IMG/VR virus record: IMGVR_UViG_3300044627_000308
Coordinates: 1-22,802 of that record
Reading direction: 5' to 3' (one strand)
Length of the DNA: 22,802 bases
DNA from: a virus
This document shows positions 1 through 22,212 of this stretch, in pieces. A program made the translations under genes and the position numbers. The notes beneath the pieces are model-generated. The model had not been told where the DNA came from. It did not search any database and saw nothing but the letters and a program-made list of their open reading frames with translations. Position 1 is the stretch's first letter, and each line of letters starts with the position of its first letter.

Positions 1-1682
1 TCTGCCATTTTAGGTATTGAGCTGCTAATAGTGGAAACAATACGGTTAACCCGCTCGGTTACTACTACGTCAATGTTTACCGAGCGCTTTAGCTTGGCGG
101 CTATCTCGTCCATTTTGGCCATAAGTTTTGGCGTTAATTTGGTGAGCTCTGCCTCAAGGCCGTTAACAATAAAGGTTGCTTGGTCTACGCCTGTCTTGTA
201 CCAATTGTTGGCGGCTTGTAGTCCTACCTTGTCGGCTGCCCGTTGTGCGGCCTCTACAAGCGCGTTGGTTTCGTCTATTGCGGTTTGCCCGCCCTTTACT
301 AGCTCTAGCGCTATTTCGGCGCCAGCGACGTTGCCAGCGTCCATGACGTAGCCCAATGCGTCTTGGCTTAAACCCATTTCCAACGCTTTGCCAAGGTTGG
401 TGGAATACTCGACAATGCCACGTACTTGCCCACGTAGGGCGTCTAAAAAGCCTTTAAAGCCGTAGTCGCCAGCCTCAAGCGCGGCGTTAAAGTCGAGGGC
501 GCCCTTAACGGCGTCGCTTACCTTGGTAGCAAAATCGTTAAATTCGCCTTGCGCCTCGGCAAGCTTGTCTTTAGCGGTATCTACTGCCTCGGTAAGTTTT
601 TCTTTAAGCGCTTCGGCAAAACTGTCCACCTCTTTTTTAGCGTCGCCCACGTTGTCTTTTGTCTCTTTAAATTTAGAATTAAATACACCAGCAGCGTCCG
701 CTACGCGCATTTGCTGTTGAGCCGACAAACCAAGCGCCTTGTTGTATGCGCCTGTTTCTTGCTCGGCGTCAAAATAGCCCGAGCCAATAGCCTGCAAGCC
801 GTTAACAAACAACGAAATAGGGTTAATAAGCTCGCCAATTAACTTGCCAAATTTGCCAACCTTTATGGTTGCGTTGGTTGCCGGGGTGGGCATATTGCTA
901 AACGCGTCGTTAATTTTTACTAAGCCGTTAGCAAAATCGGTTGCCGCTGGCAGTAGTTGTTGGCCTAATTGTATTTGAAAGTTTTTAAACAGGGCGCTAA
1001 GGGTGCGCTGCTTGTTTGCGAGGTTGTCGGCTGTCCTAGCAAAGTCGCCTTGTGCGTCGCCTGTCTGTTTGTAGATAGCGGATTGTGCCGCCAAAATCTT
1101 TTGTTGAGCTGTAAGCGCACCGCTGCCCTTGTATATGCCTAATTCCATTGCCTCGGCTTTTAGGGTGGCGTCGTTGAGCAATACACCAAAACGGCGTAGC
1201 GGCTCTGCCTCGCCACGTAGGGCCGCGCCAATGGCCTGTACGGCCTCCTCGGGCGTTGTGTTGTTAAACGAGGCTAAGTCAGTAGCAAGCGTTACAAAGT
1301 CTGTTGTAAACGTGCTTAAATCCTCGCCAGCTAGCCCGGCAGCTTTACCGAACGTGCCGAAAGCACCGGCAGCGTCGAGCACAGCCTGTTTAGACTGGCC
1401 AAGCTCTCGAGCGGCAGTATTGGCAAAGTCTTTAACGCTCTTGGACGCCCGCCCAAAAATTACGTTGACCTTGCTAGTTGCTTCTTCAAAATCCGAGGCC
1501 GCTTTAATAGCCGGGGCAATAACTTGCGTTATGGTGCCAATAGCGGCGGCAGCTGGCAGCAATGCGCGCTGCAAAATAAAGCCCGCTTTTTGGGTTGTTG
1601 TCGTAAGGCTTTTAAATTCGCGTTGAGCGTCGGCAACACCCTTGCCACTAAAGCTTGTTAAAATCGGTATGTTAATTGCCAC
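1..1682 (-). CDS. Tape measure protein, copy A (C-terminus cut by window edge)
   Basis: Tape measure protein sets tail length and threads the tail lumen during assembly and DNA ejection. The frame is open from a GTG start at 1682 to the window edge, giving 560 residues; copy B (14986-16881) shows that about 72 C-terminal residues are missing. The GTG start follows a GGTGG Shine-Dalgarno and overlaps the end of the gp10-like gene by 11 nt, the same as in copy B. The N-terminal third resembles the TP901-type phage tail tape measure domain, followed by helical, Lys/Glu-rich coiled-coil-like sequence. It differs most from copy B around positions 660-900, where it also carries one extra codon. The rest is close to copy B, largely with synonymous changes. 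Confidence 0.88.
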   Translation of the reverse strand, partial: MAINIPILTSFSGKGVADAQREFKSLTTTTQKAGFILQRALLPAAAAIGTITQVIAPAIKAASDFEEATSKVNVIFGRASKSVKDFANTAARELGQSKQAVLDAAGAFGTFGKAAGLAGEDLSTFTTDFVTLATDLASFNNTTPEEAVQAIGAALRGEAEPLRRFGVLLNDATLKAEAMELGIYKGSGALTAQQKILAAQSAIYKQTGDAQGDFARTADNLANKQRTLSALFKNFQIQLGQQLLPAATDFANGLVKINDAFSNMPTPATNATIKVGKFGKLIGELINPISLFVNGLQAIGSGYFDAEQETGAYNKALGLSAQQQMRVADAAGVFNSKFKETKDNVGDAKKEVDSFAEALKEKLTEAVDTAKDKLAEAQGEFNDFATKVSDAVKGALDFNAALEAGDYGFKGFLDALRGQVRGIVEYSTNLGKALEMGLSQDALGYVMDAGNVAGAEIALELVKGGQTAIDETNALVEAAQRAADKVGLQAANNWYKTGVDQATFIVNGLEAELTKLTPKLMAKMDEIAAKLKRSVNIDVVVTERVNRIVSTISSSIPKMA

Positions 1683-2268
1683 GGGATACCACCAAATTAC
1701 GGTTTGTCTGTGTCATAACTTTACCCACAATGCTTAGTAGCTCGGCGGTTACTGCCGGGCGATTGCTTTCCACGGCCTTGTCAATAACACGTGGGGCGTC
1801 GCCTACCTCTTTATTTAGGTTGGCAATAAACGCCGTGTTACGTACTCCGCTAATGCCAGCGCCCGCGTGGTCATAGATAGCACCCGCAAAACTCTTTTGT
1901 TGTACCACCATTAAACGGTATGGCTTGGCACCGTACACAACTTGCCGGGTGTAACCGCCTTGGTCAAAATCTACGTAGCGCTCTTTAGTAGCTCGTACAC
2001 CTACGCGCACGTTAAAGCCGCCTTGTACCTCGGATACGTTCCAAGCGGCCTCTCGGCCACGAATTAGCGAGCCTCGACGCATACCGGATAGCGGGGCACC
2101 GTTGCTACGCGATTGTGTAGAAACCATGCTTCGCGCCTCTTGCACAATTTGGTTTCCAACGGTTTTAATGTCTTTAGTTACTTGCCGCCTAATTTTGCGG
2201 TCTATGTCGTTTAACTCTTTTAACGCGTTTTGCACCCCGTAAACGTCAATTTGTCCGGTTATGCCCAT
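1672..2268 (-). CDS. HK97 gp10-like tail-completion/minor tail protein, copy A
   Basis: A 198-residue protein whose N-terminus (a G-x-D motif, then a charged helix with LKELNDIDRKIRRQV and IVQEARSMV) resembles the HK97 gp10-like family of head-tail joining or tail-completion proteins. A central basic stretch is followed by a conserved block (GGYTRQVVYGAKPY, then AGAIYDHAG). It starts 8 nt beyond the stop of the frameshifted chaperone extension, preceded by AGG, and its 3' end overlaps the tape measure GTG. Its place after the tail chaperone is unusual, because gp10-like genes normally precede the major tail gene. An alternative is a minor tail protein with a similar fold. It is among the more divergent proteins between copies, with changes clustered at residues 49-100 and 140-175. 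Confidence 0.55.
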   Translation of the reverse strand: MGITGQIDVYGVQNALKELNDIDRKIRRQVTKDIKTVGNQIVQEARSMVSTQSRSNGAPLSGMRRGSLIRGREAAWNVSEVQGGFNVRVGVRATKERYVDFDQGGYTRQVVYGAKPYRLMVVQQKSFAGAIYDHAGAGISGVRNTAFIANLNKEVGDAPRVIDKAVESNRPAVTAELLSIVGKVMTQTNRNLVVSRGN

Positions 2269-2275
2269 AGCGTCG

Positions 2276-2416
2276 CTACCTTTTTTTGTGTGCCTCTGTC
2301 AACACTTTAGCCACCGTCTGCAAGTCTTGTAGCTCAAACGGGATATTAGGCGGCCACCAACCGACAGCTACTAGCACCTCGGCTAGCTGGCGTCTGTAGG
2401 TGCCGCTTCTGTAAAA
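2276..2416 (-). CDS. Tail assembly chaperone -1 frame extension (gpGT-like), copy A
   Basis: After Phe85 of the upstream chaperone, the -1 frame is open for 45 more codons to a TAG at 2278-2276. The frame reads YRSGTYRRQLAEVLVAVGWW and then a helical LQDLQTVAKVLTEAHKKR end, typical of the second half of siphophage tail chaperones. A ribosome slipping back one base would make a fusion of about 130 residues that binds the tape measure protein. The frame opens only downstream of a TGA within the GTTGAGG context of the first ORF, so it has no convincing start of its own. The only difference from copy B here (A to C in the codon after the slip) is synonymous in both frames. Confidence 0.72.
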   Translation of the reverse strand, partial: FYRSGTYRRQLAEVLVAVGWWPPNIPFELQDLQTVAKVLTEAHKKR

Positions 2417-2667
2417 CTTGGTTGCTCTTGCTCGACAACCTCAATGTTGACAAGCTGCTTAATGAAGTTGTCAAACTCTGCCGGTACAACAATTTTGTTT
2501 AACTTGGACGCCTCAAACGCCAAAAAGGCTAAATCCTCTATGCCAATACCGTTGGCCATGTCGGACGCCTTGCGTTTAAATTTGCGCTCCCATGCCACAA
2601 CAACGTAAAGGTTGGTTGTAACCGTGTACGTGTTGTCGGGTAACTCAACTTTTAGGGTTAGCTGCAT
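2383..2667 (-). CDS. Tail assembly chaperone (gpG-like), copy A
   Basis: A 94-residue protein in the lambda gpG position, between the major tail protein and tape measure genes. The N-terminus is a short beta segment (MQLTLKVELPDNTYTVTTNL), followed by a charged WERKFKRKASDM region and helices ending in an acidic tail. The start at 2667 has an AGAGG Shine-Dalgarno six bases upstream. Chaperones of this class coat tape measure protein before tail tube polymerisation. The in-frame stop at 2383 would be bypassed by -1 slippage near 2413-2419 to make the longer product. The protein is identical in copy B despite several silent substitutions, which indicates strong purifying selection. Confidence 0.8.
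   Translation of the reverse strand: MQLTLKVELPDNTYTVTTNLYVVVAWERKFKRKASDMANGIGIEDLAFLAFEASKLNKIVVPAEFDNFIKQLVNIEVVEQEQPSFTEAAPTDAS
2413..2419 (-). promoter_or_regulatory. Candidate -1 ribosomal slippage site, copy A
   Basis: The minus strand reads A AGT TTT in the zero frame. After a -1 shift the A-site Phe tRNA re-pairs perfectly with TTT, while the P-site pairing is imperfect, so this is not a canonical X XXY YYZ heptamer. It lies inside the window where both frames are open and is unchanged in copy B (17618-17624). The exact slip point is inferred. Confidence 0.45.
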
Positions 2668-2675
2668 AACTAGCC

Positions 2676-2689
2676 TCTTTCGTGTCGGG
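2676..2689 (-). repeat. CCCGACACGAAAGA element upstream of the tail chaperone, copy A
   Basis: A 14-mer on the minus strand that also occurs at 11298-11311 upstream of the 74-residue gene, and at 17881-17894 in copy B. Its core CCCGACAYG recurs immediately before the starts at 8884, 10522 and 11289. Its closing GAAAGA merges with the Shine-Dalgarno of the chaperone gene. It may be a translation-leader motif or an operator. Confidence 0.5.
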
Positions 2690-2706
2690 CCGTGTTGAGG
2701 CCGTTA

Positions 2707-3129
2707 TTAGGAAACGTCTACCGAGTATGAGCCGCCAGTAAACGTAATGTCAATGGTTGACAATTCGCCCATGGTTGCGTTAATGACTGGCAAGCTTTCT
2801 AGGTAAGTGCCTGTCAGAATAAAGCCCGGGTTGGTTGCCGAATAAGTGTTTGGCGTTGTCGGTGCTTGTGGCGAAACCAACACGTTGCATTGGGTACCAA
2901 CAAGGCTGGCCAATGTTGCGTATGTTTCGGTTGCTGCATAGCTCATGTAAAGCGTTAGCGTTAGCTCGTTGTTTTCGAGGCCGCCAACGTTGAAACGGGC
3001 GGTGTCACCAAATGCGGTGCTTTCCAATGCTTCTACCGTGCGGGTGAGCGTTGCGGCGGTGCACTGGTCACGCAAGTTAACCGTTGCGATAGTTACGTCC
3101 GGGTTGCTTAGGTAAGTTGTTGTGGCCAT
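2707..3129 (-). CDS. Major tail (tube) protein, copy A
   Basis: A 140-residue beta-rich protein in the tail tube position, after the terminator and before the chaperones. Features typical of small actinophage tube proteins include an N-terminal NPDVTIATVNLRDQCTAA strand pair, a TAFGDTARFNVGGLENN block, and a C-terminal FILTGTYLESLPV to ITFTGGSY hairpin region. It polymerises into the non-contractile tail tube. The ATG is preceded by a strong GAGGAG, which forms the last codons of the 59-residue upstream gene, so translation is probably high. The amino acid sequence is identical to copy B although several codons differ. Confidence 0.85.
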   Translation of the reverse strand: MATTTYLSNPDVTIATVNLRDQCTAATLTRTVEALESTAFGDTARFNVGGLENNELTLTLYMSYAATETYATLASLVGTQCNVLVSPQAPTTPNTYSATNPGFILTGTYLESLPVINATMGELSTIDITFTGGSYSVDVS

Positions 3130-3133
3130 GGGG

Positions 3134-3313
3134 TTACTCCTCGTTTGTGTCTATGTCTTTTTTAGCATTTTTTGCGGGCTTAGGTGCGGATACTTTAATA
3201 AAGCCGCCAGCAAGTAGCGCCTCAACGTTGGCACCGCGCTTTACAGCTAGGTCTAGGTCAAATTCGTCGCCGGGTGTACCCACTCGAGGGCTAACAACGG
3301 TGTATTTGCTCAT
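3134..3313 (-). CDS. Small conserved structural-module protein (59 aa), copy A
   Basis: A 59-residue ORF fills the gap between tail terminator and major tail protein. Its ATG overlaps the terminator stop in an ATGA arrangement (3313-3310), and its terminal GAGGAG codons provide the Shine-Dalgarno for the tube gene. It begins MSKYTVVSPRVGTPGDEFDL, continues with a VEALLAGGFIKV segment, and ends in a Lys-rich then acidic tail. Copy B (18339-18518) keeps the frame with conservative changes (S2T, ED to AD, V to I, L to V), which supports real coding. I recognise no family with certainty; by position it could be a head-tail joining or decoration accessory. Confidence 0.75.
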   Translation of the reverse strand: MSKYTVVSPRVGTPGDEFDLDLAVKRGANVEALLAGGFIKVSAPKPAKNAKKDIDTNEE

Positions 3314-3678
3314 GCTGTGGTACTCGCTTTCAAGTCAATGGTTAAATCATAGGCGGCGTACTCGGCCCCACCGTACACCGCTACCGTTGGGCGGCCGCCA
3401 GTAACCGCTACGTTTTTGGCAAGTAGTAAAGCTGCCATGTTCATTAGCGAGCGTTGCGCGTCTAGGTTGCCCGGGCCAAGGGTAATAAGCCGTACTGGAA
3501 ACGTAATTTCAACAATGTTGTAATTAAACGCCACAAAGCTTGGGGCGTCTATAAACGCGCACGGCGGGTTAATGTTGCGCGGGTCATTAGTAACGGTTAG
3601 CCCCGTAATCGTGTTTAGCGTCGTTGTAAGGTTGTCTAGCGCGACGTTAAAAAGGTCGGTGTATGCGGGTACGGGCAT
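3310..3678 (-). CDS. Tail terminator-like protein, copy A
   Basis: A 122-residue protein placed between adaptor and tube genes, where siphophages encode the tail terminator that caps the tube and docks it to the head. An N-terminal helix (LFNVALDNLTTTLNTITG) is followed by VTNDPRNINPPCAFIDAP, a Pro-rich motif common in actinophage terminators. Then come a beta-rich core (VEITFPVRLITLGPG) and a second helix (AQRSLMNMAALLL). It overlaps the adaptor by one base and the 59-residue gene by four. Copy B differs only by V to I near the C-terminus. Assignment rests on position, size and motif, since terminators diverge greatly in sequence. Confidence 0.65.
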   Translation of the reverse strand: MPVPAYTDLFNVALDNLTTTLNTITGLTVTNDPRNINPPCAFIDAPSFVAFNYNIVEITFPVRLITLGPGNLDAQRSLMNMAALLLAKNVAVTGGRPTVAVYGGAEYAAYDLTIDLKASTTA

Positions 3679-4313
3679 TAGGCCACCGCGGGGCGGTCAA
3701 TACCCAACAACTGTTTAACCATTGGGCTAAAGCCTGTTGAACCGCCAGTAGTCATACCATCAAACGACGCGTAATCCATGCCAGCGCTACCACGTTGCCT
3801 ATACAAAAAGCCTGCATAAGCCACCGTGCCAAGGGTTACCGCGGCGCTCGGTGAGGTCGTCAAACTGTCAACGTACCCGGCTTGCTGGCGACGCTTGTAA
3901 CAAACAGCGTTTGCACTTGTGCGGCATTGCGTTAAAAACGTAGCGTCGGCAGCTGTAGCGGTGCCTATGCCTAACCAATCCTCAACTTGACTGTCGAGCG
4001 TTACCCACGTACACGTGGGCGTAGTGGTCAGGGTGCCGGTAGCCGCGACAATTTCGACGTTGGCAGCTGTACGCGCATACAACACTTGGTTTTGTATTGG
4101 CTGCTGGTAATCAAAGGTAAAAAAGCCTTGTTCGTCTACGCCCGTAAAATAGTATTGCGGCAAATCCGCTGTTAGATACGTGCCGTTAAACGTCGCGTCA
4201 ACGCCAGTAATAACTACAGACTGCCCAACCTCGAGCGGGTCGGCGTTTGTTTGTAATACTAAAACCGCGTAATTGTCGGTTAAGTACTTTTGTGTGACCG
4301 AGTAAGCGGCCAT
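3678..4313 (-). CDS. Head-tail adaptor with N-terminal beta-rich extension, copy A
   Basis: A 211-residue protein immediately downstream of the capsid gene, where the head-tail connector/adaptor normally lies. Residues from about 96 to the end look connector-like: a SQVEDWLGIG helix, cysteine-containing helices (CRTSANAVCYKRRQQAG), a YAGFLYRQRG segment and a loop ending in the LLGIDRPAVA tail. Residues 1-95 form a separate beta-rich module (EVGQSVVITGVDATFNGTYL, then YYFTGVDEQGFF) of the kind seen as add-on domains in phage structural proteins. All amino acid differences from copy B lie in this N-terminal module. An AAAGG Shine-Dalgarno lies ten bases upstream of the ATG. Confidence 0.62.
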   Translation of the reverse strand: MAAYSVTQKYLTDNYAVLVLQTNADPLEVGQSVVITGVDATFNGTYLTADLPQYYFTGVDEQGFFTFDYQQPIQNQVLYARTAANVEIVAATGTLTTTPTCTWVTLDSQVEDWLGIGTATAADATFLTQCRTSANAVCYKRRQQAGYVDSLTTSPSAAVTLGTVAYAGFLYRQRGSAGMDYASFDGMTTGGSTGFSPMVKQLLGIDRPAVA

Positions 4314-4334
4314 AGTTGGCCTACCTTTCGGTTG

Positions 4335-5903
4335 TTAAACGAGCTTGACAAACTTGGTGGCGTCGGCCATGTAGCCAGCGGCATAGCCTCTAAACGCAAT
4401 AGTGCGGCCCAAGGTTGCTGGTACGTCTACCGAGATAGCGCCCTTTTGCTGTTCGTAGAATTCAAAACCAGCGGCAGGGCCGGCAGCGTGGCCCATGAAC
4501 GAGCCGTCACAATTTTTGTCTACGACAAGGTTTAAGCCAAGCGGGTTGCCGTTCCACGAAGTAGCCGACGACGTACCGCTTGCGTTTTGGCCCATAAGGC
4601 CCGGTGCGCCAACGAATGGAAACACGGGGCGGTTTTGGTCGTCAACCTGAGCGCCGAGGTATCCCCACACAGTAGGCGAAACAAACAAGTGCGACGGCAA
4701 GTAGTTGCTGCTGTTGCTAATTTGTACAGCTGCACCGTAAATGCCCTCGATTGTGTCTTTGGCCACTTGTGGGTCCCATGATTGAGTTTGCACAATTGCA
4801 TTGCGGCAAGTGTCAATTGCGTAGTTGTCTGTTGCCTGACCGTAAGCAATTGCAAGTTGGTTAAGGATAATGTCAATGCTTGCAGGGTCACTCCAATCCA
4901 AGTCTTGTTCGGACACGGTGACGTATGTTCCAAAACTTAGTTTGGAAACGTCAGAGTTGGAAACCTCAACGGTTGACGGGTCGAGCGTGTTTAGCTGGCC
5001 TGTTGGTTGCTGTGTTACTACTGGCCGCACCACAATTTTTGGGCGGCGGAAAGTTGCGCCTTGTGTTGGCATTGCGCGAGTACCAATTGCGCTAACGAAA
5101 GGGCGAATTGGGTTTAGCCCGTCATACACGCTGCCGGTGATAATTTCGGGCAAAATGCCGGGTGTGTCCGAAGTAGTAATGTTTGGTGCGGCAGCGTTAA
5201 CGCTTACTTGCTTAATGTTGGCGTTAAGTTGTGCGAAGTCGGCGCCGCCACGTACGTAGCTAGCGATATATTCCGAAGTGCTCGGCAATTTAAAAGCTTG
5301 GCGCGGCTGTGCATAAATTGTTTGCACGGTTGCTGCTTCAATTACGGCTGGTGCTTCTACGGTCTTTTCCATGTCGTTTAACTCCTCGTTTTCGTCTTGT
5401 GTATTATTTAACTCTATTTCGTCGGGCTCTTGGTGGATACTTGCCGCGACGCGCTGCACCTTGGCGGCCTCAAATGCGCCATAGGGCAAAAGGCTTAATT
5501 CTTGCCAATCGGCCTTAGTTACAACCATGGTGCCGGCCTCGTCAAAACTAAATTCGACGGGCAAAATGCCTACGCTTACGCTGTCCAAAACGCCGTCTTT
5601 TGCAAGCTCTAGCGCCTCATTGCCTAGCGTTGTTTCGCTTATCTTGGCTTCAAACATGACGGTATTTCCGACAAGCTCTCGAGCGGTTACTAAGCCGATT
5701 GGGCTAGTGCTGTCGTGGTTTAAGTACATTTTGGGTTTTTTGCCTTCTAAAGGTAGTGCGCCCATTTCGAAACGTACTTTTTGCCCATCGGATACAACGG
5801 CCTCTACGCCATATTCGAGGGCGACGCCAGCCAAGGTTCTACGTGGCAGCGCGTCACCTTTAGCGGCGTCTAAATTTAATTCTTGTGGGATTAACCTAAG
5901 CAT
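4335..5903 (-). CDS. Prohead protease-major capsid protein fusion, copy A
   Basis: A 522-residue fusion. Residues 1-155 are an HK97-type (U35) prohead protease: YLNHD with His63, LDSVSVG with candidate nucleophile Ser110, and the ELSLLPYGAFEAAKV strand. Residues 156-220 are a charged, Asn/Glu-rich linker that may act as scaffold. From about 221 the chain is an HK97-fold major capsid protein (ASYVRGGADF, TPGILPEIITGSVYD, TVSEQDLDWSDPASIDI, and a C-terminal GRTIAFRGYAA segment). The start overlaps the portal gene by 8 nt after a GAGGT Shine-Dalgarno. A second strong start within the frame, Met178, could give free capsid protein of 345 residues. Variation from copy B clusters at 201-206, 232-248, 288-315 and 363-425. 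Confidence 0.88.
   Translation of the reverse strand: MLRLIPQELNLDAAKGDALPRRTLAGVALEYGVEAVVSDGQKVRFEMGALPLEGKKPKMYLNHDSTSPIGLVTARELVGNTVMFEAKISETTLGNEALELAKDGVLDSVSVGILPVEFSFDEAGTMVVTKADWQELSLLPYGAFEAAKVQRVAASIHQEPDEIELNNTQDENEELNDMEKTVEAPAVIEAATVQTIYAQPRQAFKLPSTSEYIASYVRGGADFAQLNANIKQVSVNAAAPNITTSDTPGILPEIITGSVYDGLNPIRPFVSAIGTRAMPTQGATFRRPKIVVRPVVTQQPTGQLNTLDPSTVEVSNSDVSKLSFGTYVTVSEQDLDWSDPASIDIILNQLAIAYGQATDNYAIDTCRNAIVQTQSWDPQVAKDTIEGIYGAAVQISNSSNYLPSHLFVSPTVWGYLGAQVDDQNRPVFPFVGAPGLMGQNASGTSSATSWNGNPLGLNLVVDKNCDGSFMGHAAGPAAGFEFYEQQKGAISVDVPATLGRTIAFRGYAAGYMADATKFVKLV
5370..5387 (-). promoter_or_regulatory. Internal Shine-Dalgarno and ATG in the protease-capsid fusion, copy A
   Basis: GAGGAG at 5387-5382 lies nine bases before an in-frame ATG (5372-5370, Met178). 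Copy B keeps GAGGAG, spacing and ATG although the codons between them changed (LND to LTE). This suggests selection for internal initiation, which would supply capsid protein in excess of protease. Confidence 0.6.
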
Positions 5904-6969
5904 TGTTTACCTCGTTTGCCATGTCCGGCATGTTTTCGGCGCTGTCTTGGTATTGGTTTTCTAAATAGCTTTCGATGTCAAACATAACACCCGTGCCACG
6001 TGGTAGCACGTTATCCGCGCTTAGTGTTTCTTGTATGCAATCTATGTATGGCTTAACCCCAAAGGTATAAAGGTCACGGCTGGCCTCACTTGATGAGACG
6101 TATGAATAATTACCGATAGATACCGAAACTAAATAAGCGGGGACGTTTGCAATGCGCGCAATTTCTTTTGCTTGGTATTCGGCGGCGTCAATAAGCAACA
6201 TTTTGTCGGGCGTTGCATTGTTAGGTATTACCTCTACAAATTCGTTTACGGCACACGTGGCCGACGCGTAACGCGCCGAGTCGTAGGCCGCTGCCAAGTC
6301 GCTTAACTCTTGCGGGCTCATAGGCTCGCCGCCAGTCTGCCTAAGCGTTACGGCTGGCTGTAGCGAGCTCGAGTTTCTGTTGCGGGCCTGCTCAAGCTTT
6401 AACGCGGTGTCCACTGACGTTGCGCCGGTATAAATCAAACCTTGAATTGGGCTCAAAAATTGTACGCAATCCTCGTAACGGATTGGTAAGCCTTGAAACA
6501 AAATTTGTTTAGACGGGCCGAACCATACGCCAGTACCTTGTGCTTGGTCTTGTGTTGTGACCATTGCAGCGGGTAGACGTGTAAACGACATTGGGTAGCC
6601 ATCGGCCGAGCGCTCAACACAATACCAAAAAGCTCTACCATAAAAAAATAAATCGTCAAATGTCCACGAAAGTATAAAGTTGTTTGTTACGCCTTTGTCA
6701 ATGCGTCGTAGCCATGAGCGCGGCGCCTCGGGCACTTTTTCCATTTCGTCGCCGTTCCACATTTCTTTATACATGACAAGCGGCAGACAGCCAACAAGGC
6801 TTGCCATTAAATCGCGGCTACGGCTAATAGTTGGCACTTGCATAAAGCGGCTACGGTTTACGCCGTCGGTGTACGCAAAAAAGTTGCCAATTTGTGAGGC
6901 GCCAGCGTTGCTACCGGCAGCGGCTTTAACAACGGTTGCTGGTTCAGGTTTGCGCGTAAAAATAGCCAT
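5896..6969 (-). CDS. Portal protein (HK97-like), copy A
   Basis: The portal is a dodecameric ring at the capsid vertex through which DNA enters and leaves. At 357 residues this is a short HK97-family portal. It has the typical N-terminal VPTISRSRDLMASLVGCLPL segment, a WTFDDLFFYGRAFWYCVERS wing region, an RYEDCVQFLSPIQGLIYTGA stretch, and a C-terminal stem/clip region (AEYQAKEIARIANVPAYLVS). It follows terminase after a 96-bp gap that holds a strong hairpin. I see no good Shine-Dalgarno before the ATG, but a four-codon mini-ORF (ATG GCA CAC TAA) ends just upstream, so initiation may depend on the leader. The protein is identical in copy B. Confidence 0.9.
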   Translation of the reverse strand: MAIFTRKPEPATVVKAAAGSNAGASQIGNFFAYTDGVNRSRFMQVPTISRSRDLMASLVGCLPLVMYKEMWNGDEMEKVPEAPRSWLRRIDKGVTNNFILSWTFDDLFFYGRAFWYCVERSADGYPMSFTRLPAAMVTTQDQAQGTGVWFGPSKQILFQGLPIRYEDCVQFLSPIQGLIYTGATSVDTALKLEQARNRNSSSLQPAVTLRQTGGEPMSPQELSDLAAAYDSARYASATCAVNEFVEVIPNNATPDKMLLIDAAEYQAKEIARIANVPAYLVSVSIGNYSYVSSSEASRDLYTFGVKPYIDCIQETLSADNVLPRGTGVMFDIESYLENQYQDSAENMPDMANEVNNA

Positions 6970-7003
6970 GCGTTTAGTGTGCCATATTTAGGCGGCTAAT
7001 GGT

Positions 7004-7056
7004 GGCACTCGCTGGCGGCGAGCAATCCCCGACGGAAAGCAAGGCCAGCGAGCGCC
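7004..7056 (-). other. 12-bp inverted repeat in the terminase-portal gap, copy A
   Basis: On the minus strand GGCGCTCGCTGG (7056-7045) pairs with CCAGCGAGTGCC (7015-7004). The single non-Watson-Crick pair is a G-U wobble in minus-strand RNA but would be an A-C mismatch in plus-strand RNA, so an RNA hairpin in the direction of transcription is favoured. The 29-nt loop holds a smaller UUCC/GGGA hairpin. No U tract follows, so it is not an intrinsic terminator. Roles could include mRNA processing, control of portal translation or a packaging signal. Confidence 0.6.
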
Positions 7057-7065
7057 AAACAAACT

Positions 7066-8811
7066 TTAGCGGTTAGCGCCCATAATCATTGGTTTACCGA
7101 CAAGTTGCGGGCGGCTTGCCATGGCGGCGGCCCATACCATACAACGCGCTGCCTCGATAGGGCCCGGGCTACGCGACGTGGATAAAGCAACACTCCCGTT
7201 GTGTTTAATTAAAACGGCTCGGGCGCAATGTTGTGTAAGTAGTAATTCGCCGTTGTGTTGTAAACGGTTTTCTACAATCATTGAGCGCACAGCGGCCGTC
7301 CATTTCAGTAGCTCACGGTAGCCAACTATGGTGCGGCGACGCTCGAGCGCGGGCGGGCAACTTACCTCTAGCGCGGGGATTATTGCTAGGCGTAGCCCGG
7401 GGTTGTTTTCTATTTCTATGTCAACTAGCCGCCACATTTCGGCAACGCTGTTAGCGGTAAACGCTACGGTTACGTGTGTTTTGTTGCCAGCTTGTACGGC
7501 GCGTACGGCGGTATAGCGGGCTTCGTCGGTTGAGCTTTCGATAGCCAACACTCCGCCGGGGGGTGGCGGGGTATCGGTTTTGCAAGCGTCAAAGACGCCT
7601 ATTTCTAGCCAGCCTGTTGTTACAGCCTGCCAAAGGTTGACGGACGCTCTAAGAAACGCCGAGCGGTTTGGGCCGAGCGCTTCGCCCTCAATTACGTCTA
7701 GGTCAATGAGGCCGCCAGCTAGTGCGGGGTTTGCGTACTCCCATGCCTCGGGCGTCATTGGGTCTAGTTGTGGGCTAGGGCTAAATTCGGCAAAGTACAA
7801 CGTGGTTTGTTTGCCGCTATCTATAGCCCTTAGCCCTTGGTCACGCCAACGTAATAGCGCGGTGCTTTCTTGCGTACCAGCCGTGCTCACAAGTAAACAC
7901 AACGGGTTTTTACGTGCACGTTGAGACGGTAGTAAACCGTCGTCTATAGCGGCCTCGGAAATTTGCCATACCTCGTCGGCGGTGATTAGGTCGGCGCTGT
8001 AACCGTGACCGGCTGCCGGGGTAGCTGCTCGAATATGCCACACGCTGCCATTCGGCATTGTTAACTTTTGGCGGCCGTATGACCACGAAACTTCGGCCCC
8101 AAATTTGGCTTCGAGGATTGGCGCCAAGTAACTGAATTGCGCGGCCGTTAAATCCAACTTGTGACTAACGCTAATTATTGTTTGCGGCTGGCCTCGGTGC
8201 TCGGCCTCTTTAGTAAGCCAATGCCCGATAACCGCGCTACTTAAAAGGCTCTTGCCGTTTTGCCGGGCCACACTTATTAGCCCTACACGGTGTAACCACT
8301 TACCAACGTCGTCGAAAGCGGTCAAACCCTCTAGACAATGCAGCTGCCACGCCATAAGCGGTAGCCCTAGCACCCTCTCTGCAAACTCCCCAATTTCGGT
8401 TGCGCGTGATTGGCTGCCAACGTGCGTAGTTGTTTCTAGTCTCGGTTGGTATCTGCCGGTTAGAGCTGGTTCGGGCTGGTTTCCAAAAAATATAGGAATT
8501 AGAGCTTGCGGGGGCTTCGCTTGCGTTTGCAAAAAAACGGGCTCGCCAAATCCTTGTGGTGTAAGGGTTTTAGCGCGTTGTTTTTGTTGTGCGTATTGTT
8601 GGCCTCGTCGAGCGTTACACGGTTTGCATGCCGGCACTAAGTTGTCGATTGCGTTTGTACCACCGTTGTCGGTGGGTTCTAGGTGGTCGGCTTCTGTTGC
8701 TTGGTTTACTCCGCACCAATGGCACACGGCGTTGCCGTTGTCAAGCACCTTTAAACGGTTGTGTTTGAATTCTTTTTGGTTGCGTTGCTTGCTGTTGTTG
8801 TTAGTTGGCAT
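7066..8811 (-). CDS. HNH nuclease-terminase large subunit fusion
   Basis: A 581-residue single polypeptide. Residues 25-72 are an HNH domain with two zinc knuckles (Cys30/Cys33 and Cys62/Cys65) and the catalytic DH pair (Asp42-His43). After a linker come the packaging ATPase: Walker A ARQNGKS at 182-188, Walker B LITADE with Asp279/Glu280, and coupling motif STAGT at 309-313. From about 421 (VLAIESSTDEARYTAV) runs the RNase H-like nuclease. It drives DNA into proheads and cuts concatemers. In many phages an HNH protein is encoded beside terminase and works with it; here it is fused, and I find no separate small terminase. The start has a GGGAG Shine-Dalgarno five bases upstream. The C-terminal 175 codons recur unchanged at 22275-22802. 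Confidence 0.9.
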   Translation of the reverse strand: MPTNNNSKQRNQKEFKHNRLKVLDNGNAVCHWCGVNQATEADHLEPTDNGGTNAIDNLVPACKPCNARRGQQYAQQKQRAKTLTPQGFGEPVFLQTQAKPPQALIPIFFGNQPEPALTGRYQPRLETTTHVGSQSRATEIGEFAERVLGLPLMAWQLHCLEGLTAFDDVGKWLHRVGLISVARQNGKSLLSSAVIGHWLTKEAEHRGQPQTIISVSHKLDLTAAQFSYLAPILEAKFGAEVSWSYGRQKLTMPNGSVWHIRAATPAAGHGYSADLITADEVWQISEAAIDDGLLPSQRARKNPLCLLVSTAGTQESTALLRWRDQGLRAIDSGKQTTLYFAEFSPSPQLDPMTPEAWEYANPALAGGLIDLDVIEGEALGPNRSAFLRASVNLWQAVTTGWLEIGVFDACKTDTPPPPGGVLAIESSTDEARYTAVRAVQAGNKTHVTVAFTANSVAEMWRLVDIEIENNPGLRLAIIPALEVSCPPALERRRTIVGYRELLKWTAAVRSMIVENRLQHNGELLLTQHCARAVLIKHNGSVALSTSRSPGPIEAARCMVWAAAMASRPQLVGKPMIMGANR

Positions 8812-14985: not shown

Positions 14986-16881
14986 TTATGCCACGTTTAG
15001 TTGTAGCGGGCCAGCGGTACGCGAATACGCCCGCAACGCGTTAACGACGCTTTGCCCTATTTCGGCGCTAGTTGATAAACCGCCAGCCACGTTAATAGTT
15101 ACGCCGCCGCCGCCCATGTTGCCCATTTGCGATAACGGTATGACAGCCTCGGGGCCTGCCTCGCCAATCATGGCAAGCGTTGGCCCGGTCACTATGCCGC
15201 CGTCGGCCATTTTAGGTATCGAGCTGCTAATAGTGGAAACAATACGGTTAACCCGCTCGGTTACTACTACGTCAATGTTTACCGAGCGTTTAAGTTTTGC
15301 GGCTATTTCGTCCATTTTTGCCATAAGTTTTGGCGTTAATTTGGTTAGCTCTGCCTCTAGGCCGTTAACAATAAAGGTTGCTTGGTCTACGCCGGTCTTG
15401 TACCAATTGTTGGCGGCTTGTAGTCCTACTTTGTCGGCTGCCGCTTTTGCGGCCTCTACAAGCGCGTTGGTTTCGTCTATAGCGGTTTGCCCACCCTTTA
15501 CTAGCTCAAGTGCTATTTCGGCGCCAGCGACGTTGCCAGCGTCCATAACGTAGCCCAATGCGTCTTGACTTAAACCCATTTCCAAGGCTTTGCCAAGGTT
15601 GGTGGAATACTCGACAATGCCACGTACTTGCCCACGTAGGGCGTCTAAAAAGCCTTTAAAGCCGTAGTCGCCAGCCTCAAGCGCGGCATTAAAGTCAAGT
15701 GCACCCTTTACGGCGTCGCTTACCTTGGTAGCAAAATCGTTAAATTCGCCTTGCGCGTCGGCCAACTTATCCTTAGCAGTATCAACGGCTTCGCTTAACT
15801 TTTCTTTAAGCGCCTCGGCAAAACTCTCTACCTCTTTTTTAGCGCCGCCCACGTCGGTTTTGGTTTCTTTAAACTTTTTGTTAAACTCTCCGGCAGCGTC
15901 GGCCATACGCATTTGTGCTTGGTTTGACCGGCCCATTTCTTGGTTGTATGCGCCTGTTTCTTTTTCGGCGTCAAACATGCCCGAGCCAAGTGCCTGTATT
16001 GCATTTGTAAGGGCAATAAGCGGGTTAATGTTTGACGCTACTTTTGCAAATAAATTTAGTTTGTCTATTGCCTTTTGTGCCGGGGTAGGCATATTGCTAA
16101 ACGCGTCGTTAATTTTTACTAAGCCGTTAGCAAAATCGGTTGCCGCTGGCAATAGTTTTTGGCCGAGTTGTATTTGAAAGTCTTTAAACAAGGCGCTTAG
16201 GGTGCGTTGCTTGTTAGCGAGGTTGTCGGCTGTCCTAGCAAAGTCGCCTTGTGCGTCGCCTGTCTGTTTATAAATAGCGGATTGTGCCGCCAAAATCTTT
16301 TGTTGAGCTGTTAGCGCACCGCTGCCCTTGTATATGCCTAATTCCATTGCCTCGGCTTTTAGGGTTGCGTCGTTAAGCAATACACCAAAACGGCGTAGAG
16401 GCTCTGCCTCGCCACGTAGGGCCGCGCCAATGGCCTGTACGGCTTCCTCGGGGGTTGTGTTGTTAAACGACGCTAGGTCAGTAGACAGCGTTACAAAGTC
16501 AGTAGTAAACGTGCTCAAATCCTCGCCAGCCAGCCCGGCAGCTTTACCGAACGTGCCAAAAGCACCAGCAGCGTCAAGCACAGATTGTTTAGACTGGCCA
16601 AGCTCTCGAGCGGCAGTATTGGCAAAGTCTTTAACGCTCTTTGACGCCCGCCCAAAAATTACGTTTACCTTGCTGGTTGCCTCTTCAAAATCCGAGGCCG
16701 CTTTAATAGCCGGGGCAATAACTTGGGTTATCGTGCCGATAGCGGCGGCAGCTGGCAGCAATGCGCGCTGCAAAATAAAGCCCGCTTTTTGGGTTGTTGT
16801 CGTAAGGCTTTTGAATTCGCGTTGAGCGTCGGCAACGCCCTTGCCGCTAAAGCTTGTTAAAATCGGTATGTTAATTGCCAC
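14986..16881 (-). CDS. Tape measure protein, copy B (complete)
   Basis: 631 residues from a GTG start with a GGTGG Shine-Dalgarno. The N-terminal part resembles the TP901-type tape measure domain (SDFEEATSKVNVIFGRASKS, then PEEAVQAIGAALRGEAEPLR), with a hydrophobic stretch near 38-58. A middle coiled-coil-like region follows, and the C-terminal signature GPTLAMIGEAGPEAVIPL lies near 567-584. It is short for a tape measure, so the tail should be correspondingly short, of the order of 0.1 micrometre by the usual 0.15 nm per residue rule. Compared with copy A the variable stretch corresponds to about residues 255-345. Confidence 0.92.
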   Translation of the reverse strand: MAINIPILTSFSGKGVADAQREFKSLTTTTQKAGFILQRALLPAAAAIGTITQVIAPAIKAASDFEEATSKVNVIFGRASKSVKDFANTAARELGQSKQSVLDAAGAFGTFGKAAGLAGEDLSTFTTDFVTLSTDLASFNNTTPEEAVQAIGAALRGEAEPLRRFGVLLNDATLKAEAMELGIYKGSGALTAQQKILAAQSAIYKQTGDAQGDFARTADNLANKQRTLSALFKDFQIQLGQKLLPAATDFANGLVKINDAFSNMPTPAQKAIDKLNLFAKVASNINPLIALTNAIQALGSGMFDAEKETGAYNQEMGRSNQAQMRMADAAGEFNKKFKETKTDVGGAKKEVESFAEALKEKLSEAVDTAKDKLADAQGEFNDFATKVSDAVKGALDFNAALEAGDYGFKGFLDALRGQVRGIVEYSTNLGKALEMGLSQDALGYVMDAGNVAGAEIALELVKGGQTAIDETNALVEAAKAAADKVGLQAANNWYKTGVDQATFIVNGLEAELTKLTPKLMAKMDEIAAKLKRSVNIDVVVTERVNRIVSTISSSIPKMADGGIVTGPTLAMIGEAGPEAVIPLSQMGNMGGGGVTINVAGGLSTSAEIGQSVVNALRAYSRTAGPLQLNVA

Positions 16882-17473
16882 GGGTCACCACCAAATTACG
16901 GTTTGTCTGTTGCATAACTTTACCCACAATGCTTAGTAGCTCGGCGGTTACCTCTTCGCGGTTGTTTTCTACAGCTCTGTTAGTAACACGCGGTGCAGTA
17001 CCAATAGAGGCTTTAGAGTTAAGGCTGCCAATAAAATTGGAATTGCGTATACCGCTAATGCCAATGCCCACGTGGTCGTAAATAGCGCCCGCAAAGCTCT
17101 TTTGCTGCACGACCATTAGTTGGTATGGCTTCGCACCGTACACAACCTGCCGGGTGTAACCGCCTTGGTTAAAATCCACGTATTTTTCGCGAGTAGCTCG
17201 AGCACCAACTTTAATACCTAAGCCCTTTTGCACCTCGGATATATCCCAAGCCGCTGCACGGTCACGAATGAGCGAGCCGCGGCGCATACCCGACAACGGG
17301 GCACCTTGTTTACGCGATTGGCTTTGCACCATGCTTCGCGCGTCTTGCACAATTTGGTCGCCAACGGTTTTAATGTCTTTAGTTACTTGCCGCCTAATTT
17401 TGCGGTCAATGTCGTTTAACTCCCTCAACGCCGCTTGCACCCCGTATACGTCTACTTGTCCGGTTATGCCCAT
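16871..17473 (-). CDS. HK97 gp10-like tail-completion/minor tail protein, copy B
   Basis: A 200-residue orthologue of the 1672-2268 protein, two residues longer because of an in-frame insertion near residue 154. The N-terminal helix, the SGMRRGSLIR motif, the GGYTRQVVYGAKPY block and the C-terminal AELLSIVGKVM helix are conserved. The stretches 49-100 and 140-175 are replaced by similar but distinct sequence (for example KGLGIKVGARATREKYVDF). This clustering suggests two surfaces under relaxed or diversifying selection. The start is again close behind the chaperone extension stop at 17481. Confidence 0.55.
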   Translation of the reverse strand: MGITGQVDVYGVQAALRELNDIDRKIRRQVTKDIKTVGDQIVQDARSMVQSQSRKQGAPLSGMRRGSLIRDRAAAWDISEVQKGLGIKVGARATREKYVDFNQGGYTRQVVYGAKPYQLMVVQQKSFAGAIYDHVGIGISGIRNSNFIGSLNSKASIGTAPRVTNRAVENNREEVTAELLSIVGKVMQQTNRNLVVTRGN

Positions 17474-17480
17474 GGCGTTG

Positions 17481-17621
17481 CTACCTTTTTTTGTGTGCCT
17501 CTGTCAACACTTTAGCCACCGTCTGCAAGTCTTGTAGCTCAAACGGGATATTAGGCGGCCACCAACCGACAGCTACTAGCACCTCGGCTAGCTGGCGTCT
17601 GTAGGTGCCGCTTCGGTAAAA
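17481..17621 (-). CDS. Tail assembly chaperone -1 frame extension, copy B
   Basis: The same 45-codon -1 frame as copy A, ending in TAG at 17483-17481. It differs from copy A at a single base (AGA to CGA, both Arg), which is also silent in the zero frame (ACA to ACC, both Thr). The rest of the overlap and extension is unchanged while neighbouring genes have accumulated many substitutions. This fits coding constraint in both frames. The slip would occur near 17618-17624. Confidence 0.72.
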   Translation of the reverse strand, partial: FYRSGTYRRQLAEVLVAVGWWPPNIPFELQDLQTVAKVLTEAHKKR

Positions 17622-17872
17622 CTTGGTTGCTCTTGCTCGACAACCTCAATGTTGACAAGCTGTTTAATAAAGTTGTCAAACTCTGCCGGTACAACAATTT
17701 TGTTTAACTTGGACGCCTCAAACGCCAAAAAGGCTAAATCCTCTATGCCAATACCATTGGCCATGTCGGACGCCTTGCGCTTAAATTTCCTCTCCCATGC
17801 GACAACAACATAAAGGTTGGTTGTAACCGTGTAGGTGTTGTCGGGTAATTCAACTTTTAGGGTTAGCTGCAT
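17588..17872 (-). CDS. Tail assembly chaperone (gpG-like), copy B
   Basis: A 94-residue protein identical to copy A, encoded with several silent differences. The AGAGG Shine-Dalgarno and the upstream CCCGACACGAAAGA element are conserved. It lies between the major tail protein and gp10-like genes. Normal termination gives this short form; a -1 shift gives the fusion of about 130 residues. Confidence 0.8.
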   Translation of the reverse strand: MQLTLKVELPDNTYTVTTNLYVVVAWERKFKRKASDMANGIGIEDLAFLAFEASKLNKIVVPAEFDNFIKQLVNIEVVEQEQPSFTEAAPTDAS

Positions 17873-17911
17873 AACTAGCCTCTTTCGTGTCGGGCCGTGT
17901 TGAGGCCGTTA

Positions 17912-18334
17912 TTAGGAAACGTCTACGGAATACGAACCGCCAGTAAACGTAATGTCAATCGTTGACAATTCGCCCATAGTTGCGTTAATAACTGGCAAGC
18001 TTTCTAGGTAAGTGCCTGTCAAAATAAAGCCCGGGTTGGTTGCCGAATAAGTGTTTGGCGTTGTCGGTGCTTGTGGCGAAACCAACACGTTGCATTGGGT
18101 ACCAACAAGGCTGGCCAATGTTGCGTATGTTTCGGTTGCGGCGTAGCTCATGTAAAGAGTAAGTGTTAGCTCGTTGTTTTCGAGGCCGCCAACGTTGAAA
18201 CGGGCGGTGTCACCAAATGCGGTGCTTTCCAATGCTTCTACCGTGCGGGTAAGCGTTGCGGCGGTGCACTGGTCACGCAAGTTAACCGTTGCGATAGTTA
18301 CGTCCGGGTTGCTTAGGTAAGTTGTTGTGGCCAT
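17912..18334 (-). CDS. Major tail (tube) protein, copy B
   Basis: A 140-residue tube protein identical in amino acid sequence to copy A although many third positions differ, for example in the last ten codons. The GAGGAG Shine-Dalgarno is kept. The silent divergence shows that both versions come from lineages under strong purifying selection, rather than from sequencing noise. Confidence 0.85.
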   Translation of the reverse strand: MATTTYLSNPDVTIATVNLRDQCTAATLTRTVEALESTAFGDTARFNVGGLENNELTLTLYMSYAATETYATLASLVGTQCNVLVSPQAPTTPNTYSATNPGFILTGTYLESLPVINATMGELSTIDITFTGGSYSVDVS

Positions 18335-18338
18335 GGGG

Positions 18339-18518
18339 TTACTCCTCGTTTGTGTCTATGTCTTTTTTAGCATTTTTTGCGGGCTTAGGTGCGGATACTT
18401 TAATAAAGCCGCCAGCTACTAGCGCCTCGATATTAGCACCGCGCTTTACAGCTAGGTCTAGGTCAAAATCGGCGCCCGGTGTACCCACTCGAGGGCTAAC
18501 AACGGTGTATTTGGTCAT
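18339..18518 (-). CDS. Small conserved structural-module protein (59 aa), copy B
   Basis: Orthologue of 3134-3313, beginning MTKYTVVSPRVGTPGADFDL. It keeps the ATGA overlap with the terminator gene and the terminal GAGGAG that serves the tube gene. Amino acid changes from copy A are few and conservative and the frame is intact. Function is unknown. Confidence 0.75.
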   Translation of the reverse strand: MTKYTVVSPRVGTPGADFDLDLAVKRGANIEALVAGGFIKVSAPKPAKNAKKDIDTNEE

Positions 18519-18883
18519 GCTGTAGTACTCGCTTTCAAGTCAATAGTTAAATCATAGGCGGCGTACTCGGCCCCACCGTAGATAGCCACCGTTGGGCGGC
18601 CGCCAGTAACCGCCACGTTTTTGGCAAGTAGTAAAGCTGCCATATTCATTAGCGAGCGTTGCGCGTCTAGGTTGCCCGGGCCAAGGGTAATTAGCCGTAC
18701 AGGAAAGGTAATTTCAACAATGTTGTAGTTAAACGCCACAAAGCTAGGGGCGTCTATAAACGCGCACGGCGGGTTAATGTTTCGCGGGTCATTAGTGACG
18801 GTAAGCCCCGTAATCGTGTTTAGCGTCGTTGTGAGGTTGTCTAGCGCGACGTTAAAAAGGTCGGTGTATGCGGGTACGGGCAT
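18515..18883 (-). CDS. Tail terminator-like protein, copy B
   Basis: 122 residues, differing from copy A only by one V to I change (GGRPTVAIYGG). Position and motifs (VTNDPRNINPPCAFIDAP, VEITFPVRLITLGPG) are as described for copy A. It overlaps the adaptor by one base and the 59-residue gene by four. Confidence 0.65.
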   Translation of the reverse strand: MPVPAYTDLFNVALDNLTTTLNTITGLTVTNDPRNINPPCAFIDAPSFVAFNYNIVEITFPVRLITLGPGNLDAQRSLMNMAALLLAKNVAVTGGRPTVAIYGGAEYAAYDLTIDLKASTTA

Positions 18884-19518
18884 TAGGCCACCGCGGGGCG
18901 GTCAATACCCAACAGCTGTTTAACCATTGGGCTAAATCCTGTTGAGCCGCCAGTAGTCATACCGTCAAACGACGCGTAATCCATGCCAGCGCTACCACGT
19001 TGCCTATACAAAAAGCCTGCATAAGCCACGGTGCCGAGGGTTACCGCGGCGCTCGGTGAGGTCGTCAAGCTGTCCACGTACCCGGCTTGCTGTCGTCGCT
19101 TGTAGCAAACGGCGTTAGCACTTGTGCGGCATTGCGTTAGAAACGTGGCGTCGGCAGCTGTAGCGGTGCCTATGCCTAACCAATCCTCAACTTGGCTGTC
19201 GAGCGTTACCCACGTACACGTAGGCGTAGTAGTCAGGGTGCCAGTAGCCGCGACAATTTCGACGTTGGCAGCTGTACGCGCATATAACACTTGGTTTTGT
19301 ATTGGCTGCTGGTCGTCGTAATGGAAAAACCCTTGCTCGTCAACGCCCGTAAAATAGTATTGCGGCAAGTCAACGACGGTGTACGTGCCGTTAAAGGTTG
19401 CGTCAACGCCGCTAATAACAACGGATTGAGCAACCTCAAGCGGGTCGGCGTTAGTTAGTAATACAACAACCGCGTAATTGTCGGTTAAGTATTTTTGTGT
19501 GACCGAATAAGCGGCCAT
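18883..19518 (-). CDS. Head-tail adaptor with N-terminal beta-rich extension, copy B
   Basis: 211 residues. From about residue 70 to the end it is identical to copy A. Before that, about ten residues differ in three patches (around 18-36, LTA to TVV at 47-49, and TFDY to HYDD at 66-69). The boundary coincides with the junction between the beta-rich extension and the connector-like part, supporting a two-domain reading in which the outer domain evolves faster. Confidence 0.62.
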   Translation of the reverse strand: MAAYSVTQKYLTDNYAVVVLLTNADPLEVAQSVVISGVDATFNGTYTVVDLPQYYFTGVDEQGFFHYDDQQPIQNQVLYARTAANVEIVAATGTLTTTPTCTWVTLDSQVEDWLGIGTATAADATFLTQCRTSANAVCYKRRQQAGYVDSLTTSPSAAVTLGTVAYAGFLYRQRGSAGMDYASFDGMTTGGSTGFSPMVKQLLGIDRPAVA

Positions 19519-19537
19519 AATGGCCTACCTTTCGATA

Positions 19538-21112
19538 TCAGACGAATTTAACAAACTTGGTGGCGTCTGCCATGAAAGCGGCAGCGTAACCACGGAAAGC
19601 AATCGTGCGGCCCAAGGTAGCTGGTACCTCAACGCTAATTGCGCCCTTTTGCTGTTCGTAGAATTCAAAGCCAGCGGCAGGGCCAGCAGCGTGTCCCATG
19701 AATGAGCCCGGTGCGTTCTTGTCAACAACAAGTACCAAACCAAGCGGGTTGCCGTTCCACGTTGTTGCAGCGGCGTTGCCGGCAGCGTTTTGGCCCATAA
19801 GGTTTGGTGCGCCTGTGTATGGAAATACTGGCCTGTCTTGGTTGTCTACCGAGCTGGCCAATGCGGCCCAACTTGCAGGCGTTACAAACATGTGCGTTGG
19901 CAGGTAGTTAGAGTTTGCCGAAATTTGGCGGGCGCCCTCGTAAATTGCTGCTACCCAATCTGCACCTTTGTCGGTATCTGCTACCGATGAAGTTTGTGTG
20001 ATTGCTGCATGGCAAGTGTCTACGGCGTAGTTGTCGGTTGCTTGGCCGTAAGCAATTGCAAGCTGGTTCAAAATAATGTCAATGCTTGATGGGTCTGACC
20101 AATCCAAGTCTTGTTCGGACACGGTGACGTATGTTCCAAAACTTAGTTTTGAAACGTCGTTGTTTGAAACTACAACGGTTGACGCGTTGAGCGTGTCAAA
20201 CTGTGCGGCCTGTTGTGTAACAACTGGTCGAGTTGTAATTACTGGACGGCGGAAAGTTGCGCCAGCTGTCGGCATTGCCCTAGTCCCGATTGCACTAACA
20301 AACGGCCTAATTGGGTTTAGCGAGTCGTAGACACTCCCGGTGATGATTTCTGGCAATATGCCCGGGGTGCTTTCCGTGTTAATGAATGGCGCAACACCGG
20401 GTGCAGCTTCAACAACTGCTTGCTTAATGTTTGCGTTCATTTGTGCAAAGTCGGCGCCGCCACGTACGTAGCTAGCGATGTATTCCGACGTGCTCGGCAA
20501 ACGCAATTTGCGAGGCTGTGCATAAATGGTTTGCACGGTTGCGGCCTCAATAACGGCTGGTGTTTCTACGGTCTTTTCCATTTCGGTTAACTCCTCGTTT
20601 TCGTCTTGTGTATTATTTAACTCTATTTGTTCGGGCTCTTGGTGGATACTCGCCGCGACGCGCTGCACCTTGGCCGCCTCAAATGCGCCATAGGGCAGCA
20701 AACTGAGCTCTTGCCAATCGGCCTTAGTTACAACCATGGTGCCGGCCTCGTCAAAACTAAATTCGACGGGCAAAATGCCTACGCTTACGCTGTCCAAAAC
20801 GCCGTCTTTTGCAAGCTCTAGCGCCTCGTTGCCTAGCGTTGTTTCGCTTATCTTGGCTTCAAACATGACGGTATCGCCCACCAACTCTCTAGCCGTGACC
20901 AAGCCGATTGGACTAGTGCTGTCATGGTTGAGATACATTTTGGGTTTTTTGCCCTCGAGCGGTAGTGAGCCCTGCTCAAACCGTACTTTTTGCCCGTCCG
21001 ATACGACGGCCTCTACGCCGTATTGTAGGGCGACACCGGCAAGGGTTCTACGTGGCAGCGCGTCACCTTTAGCGGCGTCTAAATTTAATTCTTGTGGGAT
21101 TAACCTAAGCAT
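19538..21112 (-). CDS. Prohead protease-major capsid protein fusion, copy B
   Basis: 524 residues with the same layout as copy A. The protease has His63 in YLNHD and Ser110 in SVSVG, followed by a charged linker and an HK97-fold capsid domain. The first 23 codons are identical at base level to copy A, then substitutions begin abruptly. The protease differs at few residues (E30Q, M47Q, A49S, N80D). The capsid domain differs strongly in the patch after residue 362, where copy B carries a distinct sequence (TSSVADTDKGADWVAAIYEG), while the flanking TYVTVSEQDLDWSDP and the C-terminal GRTIAFRGYAA are preserved. Met178 again has its own GAGGAG. Confidence 0.88.
   Translation of the reverse strand: MLRLIPQELNLDAAKGDALPRRTLAGVALQYGVEAVVSDGQKVRFEQGSLPLEGKKPKMYLNHDSTSPIGLVTARELVGDTVMFEAKISETTLGNEALELAKDGVLDSVSVGILPVEFSFDEAGTMVVTKADWQELSLLPYGAFEAAKVQRVAASIHQEPEQIELNNTQDENEELTEMEKTVETPAVIEAATVQTIYAQPRKLRLPSTSEYIASYVRGGADFAQMNANIKQAVVEAAPGVAPFINTESTPGILPEIITGSVYDSLNPIRPFVSAIGTRAMPTAGATFRRPVITTRPVVTQQAAQFDTLNASTVVVSNNDVSKLSFGTYVTVSEQDLDWSDPSSIDIILNQLAIAYGQATDNYAVDTCHAAITQTSSVADTDKGADWVAAIYEGARQISANSNYLPTHMFVTPASWAALASSVDNQDRPVFPYTGAPNLMGQNAAGNAAATTWNGNPLGLVLVVDKNAPGSFMGHAAGPAAGFEFYEQQKGAISVEVPATLGRTIAFRGYAAAFMADATKFVKFV
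20579..20596 (-). promoter_or_regulatory. Internal Shine-Dalgarno and ATG in the protease-capsid fusion, copy B
   Basis: GAGGAG at 20596-20591 lies nine bases upstream of in-frame ATG 20581-20579 (Met178). Signal and spacing match copy A even though the intervening codons differ, consistent with a real internal initiation site for free capsid protein. Confidence 0.6.
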
Positions 21113-22178: not shown

Positions 22179-22212
22179 GCGTTTAGTGTGCCATATTTAG
22201 GCGGCTAATGGT

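Follow-up and report, generated by a model that had tools for sequence, protein, structure and literature searches.

A conserved in-frame start within a phage protease-capsid fusion gene predicts a free capsid protein

Introduction

When a head protease and a shell protein are encoded as one polypeptide, does every subunit of the shell carry a protease, or can the same gene also supply capsid protein that is free of it? Fusions of an S78-type protease to an HK97-type capsid protein are present in the small actinophage clusters EE, AN, AX, FE, CW, DM and RRH1 (PMC7302621, PMC5513430). Among the smallest tailed phages, they have been noted as odd, since there is apparently one protease on each subunit. 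Here, we focus on a fusion gene of this kind in a virus record of IMG/VR (IMGVR_UViG_3300044627_000308), the whole 22,802-base stretch of which is referred to as the window.

Nested genes offer a precedent. In phage lambda, the head protease gene C contains an internal in-frame start from which a C-terminal product without the protease, the scaffold Nu3, is made; I/Z of phage Mu is a nested same-frame gene pair of the same sort. Shaw and Murialdo reportedly described C/Nu3 in 1980 as nested genes in one frame (cited in PMC8508860).

The fusion gene and its genome

The window runs one and a half times through a genome of approximately 15.2 kb, having been assembled from two strains. One region occurs in it in two versions, at 1-7593 and 15203-22802, with 90.7% identity overall, 100% identity beyond approximately position 6000 and the greatest divergence at approximately 4500-5000. 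The fusion gene is present as copies A and B (table 1), which are strain variants of a single locus and were rejected as independent evidence of conservation. Because the window is a 1.5-fold read of two strains, agreement between the copies carries little weight, and the argument of the original prediction from conservation in both of them is weak. The gene order within the 15.2-kb unit is portal, fusion, then connector and tail genes, and the start of the fusion gene overlaps the portal gene by 8 bases.

Table 1. Positions of the fusion gene, its predicted products and its candidate signals in the window.
Feature	Position	Strand	Description
Protease-capsid fusion gene, copy A	4335..5903	minus	ORF, 522 aa; PF04586, PF25209 and phrog_2263 matches
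Protease-capsid fusion gene, copy B	19538..21112	minus	ORF, 524 aa; strain variant, same locus as copy A
Shine-Dalgarno GAGGT for full-length start at 5903	5909..5913	minus	Duplex energy -7.3
S78 protease domain, residues 22-157	5433..5840	minus	Profile match, confident part of model, invariant His63 and Ser110
Portal gene	5896..6969	minus	8-base overlap with start of fusion gene
Predicted free capsid protein, copy A, 345 aa	4335..5372	minus	Inferred from internal start; HK97-type fold, C-terminal part
Predicted free capsid protein, copy B, 347 aa	19538..20581	minus	Inferred
Internal Shine-Dalgarno GAGGAG, copy A	5382..5387	minus	Pattern match; duplex energy -8.2
Internal in-frame ATG (Met178), copy A	5370..5372	minus	ATG in 93/93 distinct genes
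Internal Shine-Dalgarno GAGGAG, copy B	20591..20596	minus	Pattern match
Internal ATG, copy B	20579..20581	minus	Pattern match
Box 1, AGTATCCACCAA, copy A	5430..5441	minus	69 bases before internal ATG; longest invariant run of the gene
Box 2, TAG[AT]GTTAAAT, copy A	5406..5416	minus	13 bases after box 1; 44 bases upstream of ATG
Box 1, copy B	20639..20650	minus	Sequence match
Box 2, copy B	20615..20625	minus	Sequence match

In profile searches, the fusion protein is matched by Peptidase_S78 (PF04586) at residues 55-157, by Phage_capsid_4 (PF25209) at residues 233-520 and by phrog_2263 along its whole length; a sequence search with the protein matched no solved structure. The catalytic residues His63 and Ser110 are invariant across 42 sequences, as is characteristic of Peptidase S78, and the N-terminal part is a predicted protease. 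An AlphaFold2 model built from 42 sequences shows high confidence in the protease (residues ~21-154), low confidence in residues 155-266 and moderate confidence in the capsid part, for which Foldseek returned matches to HK97-type capsids with E down to 9e-11. Within the low-confidence region, residues 178-266 have pLDDT mostly below 50, with helices near 209-231 only. Domain order, gene position, genome size and homology all place the gene among the small-actinophage protease-capsid fusions, in which one gene likewise lies between those for portal and head-tail adaptor and the genomes measure 14-18 kb.

Elsewhere in the window, the large terminase and an HNH nuclease are fused in one reading frame (7066-8811, minus strand). 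Nineteen loci, a few of them duplicate contigs, begin precisely at 8506, midway through this ORF (site 8506/8507, minus strand), and records that read across 8506/8507 keep an HNH-terminase ORF of 581-592 aa open, as if a genome end (cos) lay inside the ORF and the gene were whole only in joined DNA. Neither a host nor a prophage was found when bacterial genomes were searched.

An internal start and its conservation in two lineages

A GAGGAG signal nine bases before in-frame Met178 had been predicted for both copies, and this was confirmed: the record contains GAGGAG-N9-ATG at two places only, 5370-5387 and 20579-20596, in frame and on the minus strand in each case, while the reversed control pattern has zero matches in the record. 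The codons between signal and ATG encode LND in one copy and LTE in the other, as had been noted. The expected 345-residue product is correct for copy A, but copy B would give 347 residues. Met178 falls within the linker that follows the protease and is poorly modelled, and the product would therefore retain approximately 90 residues ahead of the capsid core.

A protein search with the fusion gave 559 related stretches, from which the conservation of this start could be assessed. The prediction had named relatives without the internal signal as the evidence that would count against it; the start is instead kept in 93 of 93 distinct close relatives (group 1), in all 68 genes of a second lineage (group 2) and in nearly all cultured small-genome fusions. 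In group 1, the ATG lies within an otherwise variable linker and the signal before it varies between GAGGAG (Glu-Glu), AAAGGA (Lys-Glu) and AGAGGT (x-Glu-Val), all of which are complementary to the anti-Shine-Dalgarno. Group 2, at approximately 44% protein identity, was gathered by protein alone, avoiding selection by the DNA element, and has AGAGGAG together with the ATG in 68/68.

Constraint on the DNA itself was measured as synonymous variation. Among 29 group 1 genes less than 90% identical, this reaches its minimum for the gene over codons -23 to -5 relative to the ATG, where the ratio of observed to expected variation is 0.17; none of 2000 permutations was as low, the lowest permuted value being 0.45. 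For group 2, the ratio falls to 0.05 at codons -16 to +3 (0/1000 permutations as low), with zero synonymous change in 9-codon windows centred at -12 to -4. The gene-wide minimum thus falls at the internal start in both groups. An overlapping gene was excluded as the source of this constraint, as no alternative frame is open throughout both groups. Conservation of the start and the strongest nucleotide-level constraint in the gene support the prediction that two products arise from one gene.

Boundary starts in cultured phages

The window protein is matched by 210 phage records, the best at approximately 25% identity over 84-89%, with E down to 2e-18. The cultured set comprised Microbacterium, Arthrobacter, Gordonia, Curtobacterium and Rhodococcus phages with an annotated fusion, which are approximately 25% identical or linked via intermediates. 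A strong Shine-Dalgarno followed by an in-frame ATG or GTG is present at the protease/capsid boundary in nearly all cultured small actinophages with the fusion, including Microbacterium cluster EE, Arthrobacter cluster AN, Gordonia, Curtobacterium and Rhodococcus RRH1. Boundary ATGs with a good signal are MrGreen M163, Efeko M168, Naby M161, Maggie M160, SerialPhiller M176, Sputnik M165, Adaia M162, Penoan M160, Root M178, Noely M205, Barebow M173, GMA5 M265, McGonagall M276, Coeur M307, Schiebs M226 and RRH1 M274; the signal is modest or weak in Berka (M190), BlueFeather (M204) and Yavru (M197). Contigs L216-L219 also have a strong signal and boundary start, which is GTG in L216-L218 and ATG in L219. 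The more distant fusion of Circum (cluster AM) has a boundary ATG at M165 with AAGGAG, and two other ATGs in that gene score equally.

Two Gordonia phages, Emperor and EricDab, are exceptions in which a boundary start with a Shine-Dalgarno is absent; a strong signal and ATG lie instead ahead of the protease, after an N-terminal membrane segment (M121 and M117, respectively). An extra membrane-spanning, holin-like segment of this kind precedes the protease in frame in RRH1, Emperor, GMA5, EricDab, McGonagall and Coeur, and the segments of RRH1, GMA5 and McGonagall match phrog_4316, a phrog with no assigned function. Hadban, for which the recorded host is Pseudomonas aeruginosa, has a fusion that shares 98.9% identity with the one in Arthrobacter phage Adaia, and this host entry looks doubtful.

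Across 19 lineages, the boundary ATG as chosen by eye has the best Shine-Dalgarno of its gene in 15, against 2.8 expected. When the ATG was chosen blind, as the first after the protease motif and without regard to the signal, it still has the best one in 12 of the 19 (2.8 expected, P 1.2e-6), and the median energy is -8.0 at the Met so chosen and -2.4 at other ATGs. Synonymous codon shuffling of signal strength was not significant across the 19 lineages (Fisher P 0.18, Stouffer 0.06), because the linker residues (EE, KE, RED) themselves favour a Shine-Dalgarno. Codon choice alone is therefore no proof of a signal, and the stronger evidence is positional conservation together with the missing synonymous change. 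Cluster EE, an independent case, also has its lowest synonymous windows at the internal start; no such dip was seen in the six genes of cluster AN.

These comparisons bear on the possibility that only the full-length fusion is made, with the protease of each subunit cleaving itself at the linker and the internal signal persisting as a relic from before the fusion. Published annotations do give one product, a 'protease-scaffold-capsid fusion' (PMC7302621), Emperor and EricDab do without a boundary start, and a 1:1 scaffold domain is tolerated in HK97 (PMC10275583). A relic would decay, yet the site persists across proteins of approximately 25% identity and no other DNA in the gene is as constrained, and we regard this explanation as improbable.

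It is similarly unlikely that both proteins are made with the short product as a minor regulator or scaffold, leaving the self-cleaved full-length fusion as the main shell subunit. The full-length start has a good Shine-Dalgarno too (-7.3), which would suit such an arrangement. The internal signal (-8.2) is at least as strong, however, and lies in unfolded mRNA, the start being within the 1-7% least folded mRNA windows where the site is present. The short product also holds the entire HK97-type capsid part and should therefore assemble as shell.

Two conserved boxes upstream of the start

Two further sequences, boxes 1 and 2, lie upstream of the internal start in the freshwater lineages and are an addition relative to the small actinophage fusions. 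Box 1 is found in 92 of 93 group 1 genes and 67 of 68 group 2 genes, and box 2 in nearly all group 1 genes and 68/68 of group 2; box 1 is also the sole 12-mer of the window common to all 12 diverse long contigs. A DNA scan for the two boxes matched at least 80 contigs, some just 42% identical in protein. Within coding sequence, the boxes are nearly invariant and fixed in spacing across proteins down to this identity. In 80 of the 80 contigs listed, an in-frame ATG with a Shine-Dalgarno lies exactly 69 bases downstream from the start of box 1. One relative, L044, has a 27-base deletion that takes out box 2, with box 1, the Shine-Dalgarno and the ATG kept.

A standard sigma-70 promoter scan had no match on the gene's strand at the site of the boxes. 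TAGWGT in box 2 fits a TANNNT-type -10 element, lying 17 bases downstream of TATCCA in box 1, and a promoter of this type, with transcript start approximately 32 bases before the ATG, is possible. The pattern of conservation suggests that the boxes are an extra control element, perhaps a promoter for a capsid-only message. Box 1 as a repeated operator was rejected, since each unit has just one exact copy of it and each contig listed has one match to the two boxes. RNA structure was likewise rejected as the explanation: there is no stable fold (z -1.2) and the start lies in weakly structured mRNA.

That a DNA or RNA element of some kind (promoter, packaging or recombination site, RNA structure) imposes all of the constraint, leaving the Shine-Dalgarno and ATG incidental, is very improbable: the boxes do lie 34-69 bases upstream of the ATG, past the Shine-Dalgarno, in single copy and at fixed spacing, but the group 2 stretch of zero variation extends through the Shine-Dalgarno up to the ATG, the 69-base distance holds in every contig listed, cluster EE has a constrained internal start with no upstream synonymous dip of the box type, a stable fold is absent, and a promoter at the boxes would itself serve the internal product.

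Discussion

We consider it likely that the locus encodes a nested pair in one frame, in which the fusion carries the protease, the internal start gives free capsid protein and the two co-assemble. On the comparative evidence, both a fused enzyme and a free shell protein are very probably made from the one gene; most likely the fusion serves to bring in the protease, with the shell built mainly from the internal product. Ribosomes starting at 5903 would produce the 522-residue protease-capsid fusion, while those starting at the internal signal (Met178, 5372) would produce the 345-residue capsid protein without protease. Both products would co-assemble via their common HK97-type capsid part, such that the fusion carries a controlled dose of protease into the prohead and free capsid protein makes up most of the subunits. 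During maturation, the protease would then trim linkers or N-terminal arms as well as itself. Residues 178 to approximately 266 may serve as the scaffold. In the freshwater lineages, the internal product may be boosted by the conserved element that lies 69 to 34 bases upstream and could be a promoter for capsid-only mRNA.

The closest known logic is that of lambda C/Nu3, which the fusion gene appears by analogy to follow. Both are head protease genes with a conserved internal in-frame start and its own ribosome-binding site. The protease of lambda belongs to another family, and the internal product is a scaffold there and would be the shell protein here; as the predicted product contains the capsid fold and is not scaffold only, the gene is no member of the C/Nu3 type. 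HK97 shares the S78 family and capsid fold but has separate genes for the gp4 protease and gp5 capsid, and compared with the approximately 90-residue N-terminal stretch before the core here, its delta domain has 102 residues (PMC8508860). In Pseudomonas phage MD8, protease, scaffold and capsid are predicted in one gene, gp5, the protease of which was modelled on ClpP and aligned by the authors with that of lambda (PMC8508860). This single-gene arrangement, compared by description, is alike, and no internal start is mentioned (PMC8508860). The fusion itself is already published; in the accounts covered by our search, we found no report of an internal start or of two products.

More speculatively, small-genome siphophages as a class may set the dose of prohead protease via two starts in one gene, with boxes 1 and 2, which may be an internal promoter, controlling the choice in freshwater lineages, and some Gordonia phages separating an N-terminal membrane domain from the protease-capsid part likewise; we hold this broader view as a possibility that falls somewhat short of even. 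The conserved second start, if used, would solve the puzzle of protease stoichiometry in these phages, and the main structural protein of hundreds of phages would then be missing from database entries.
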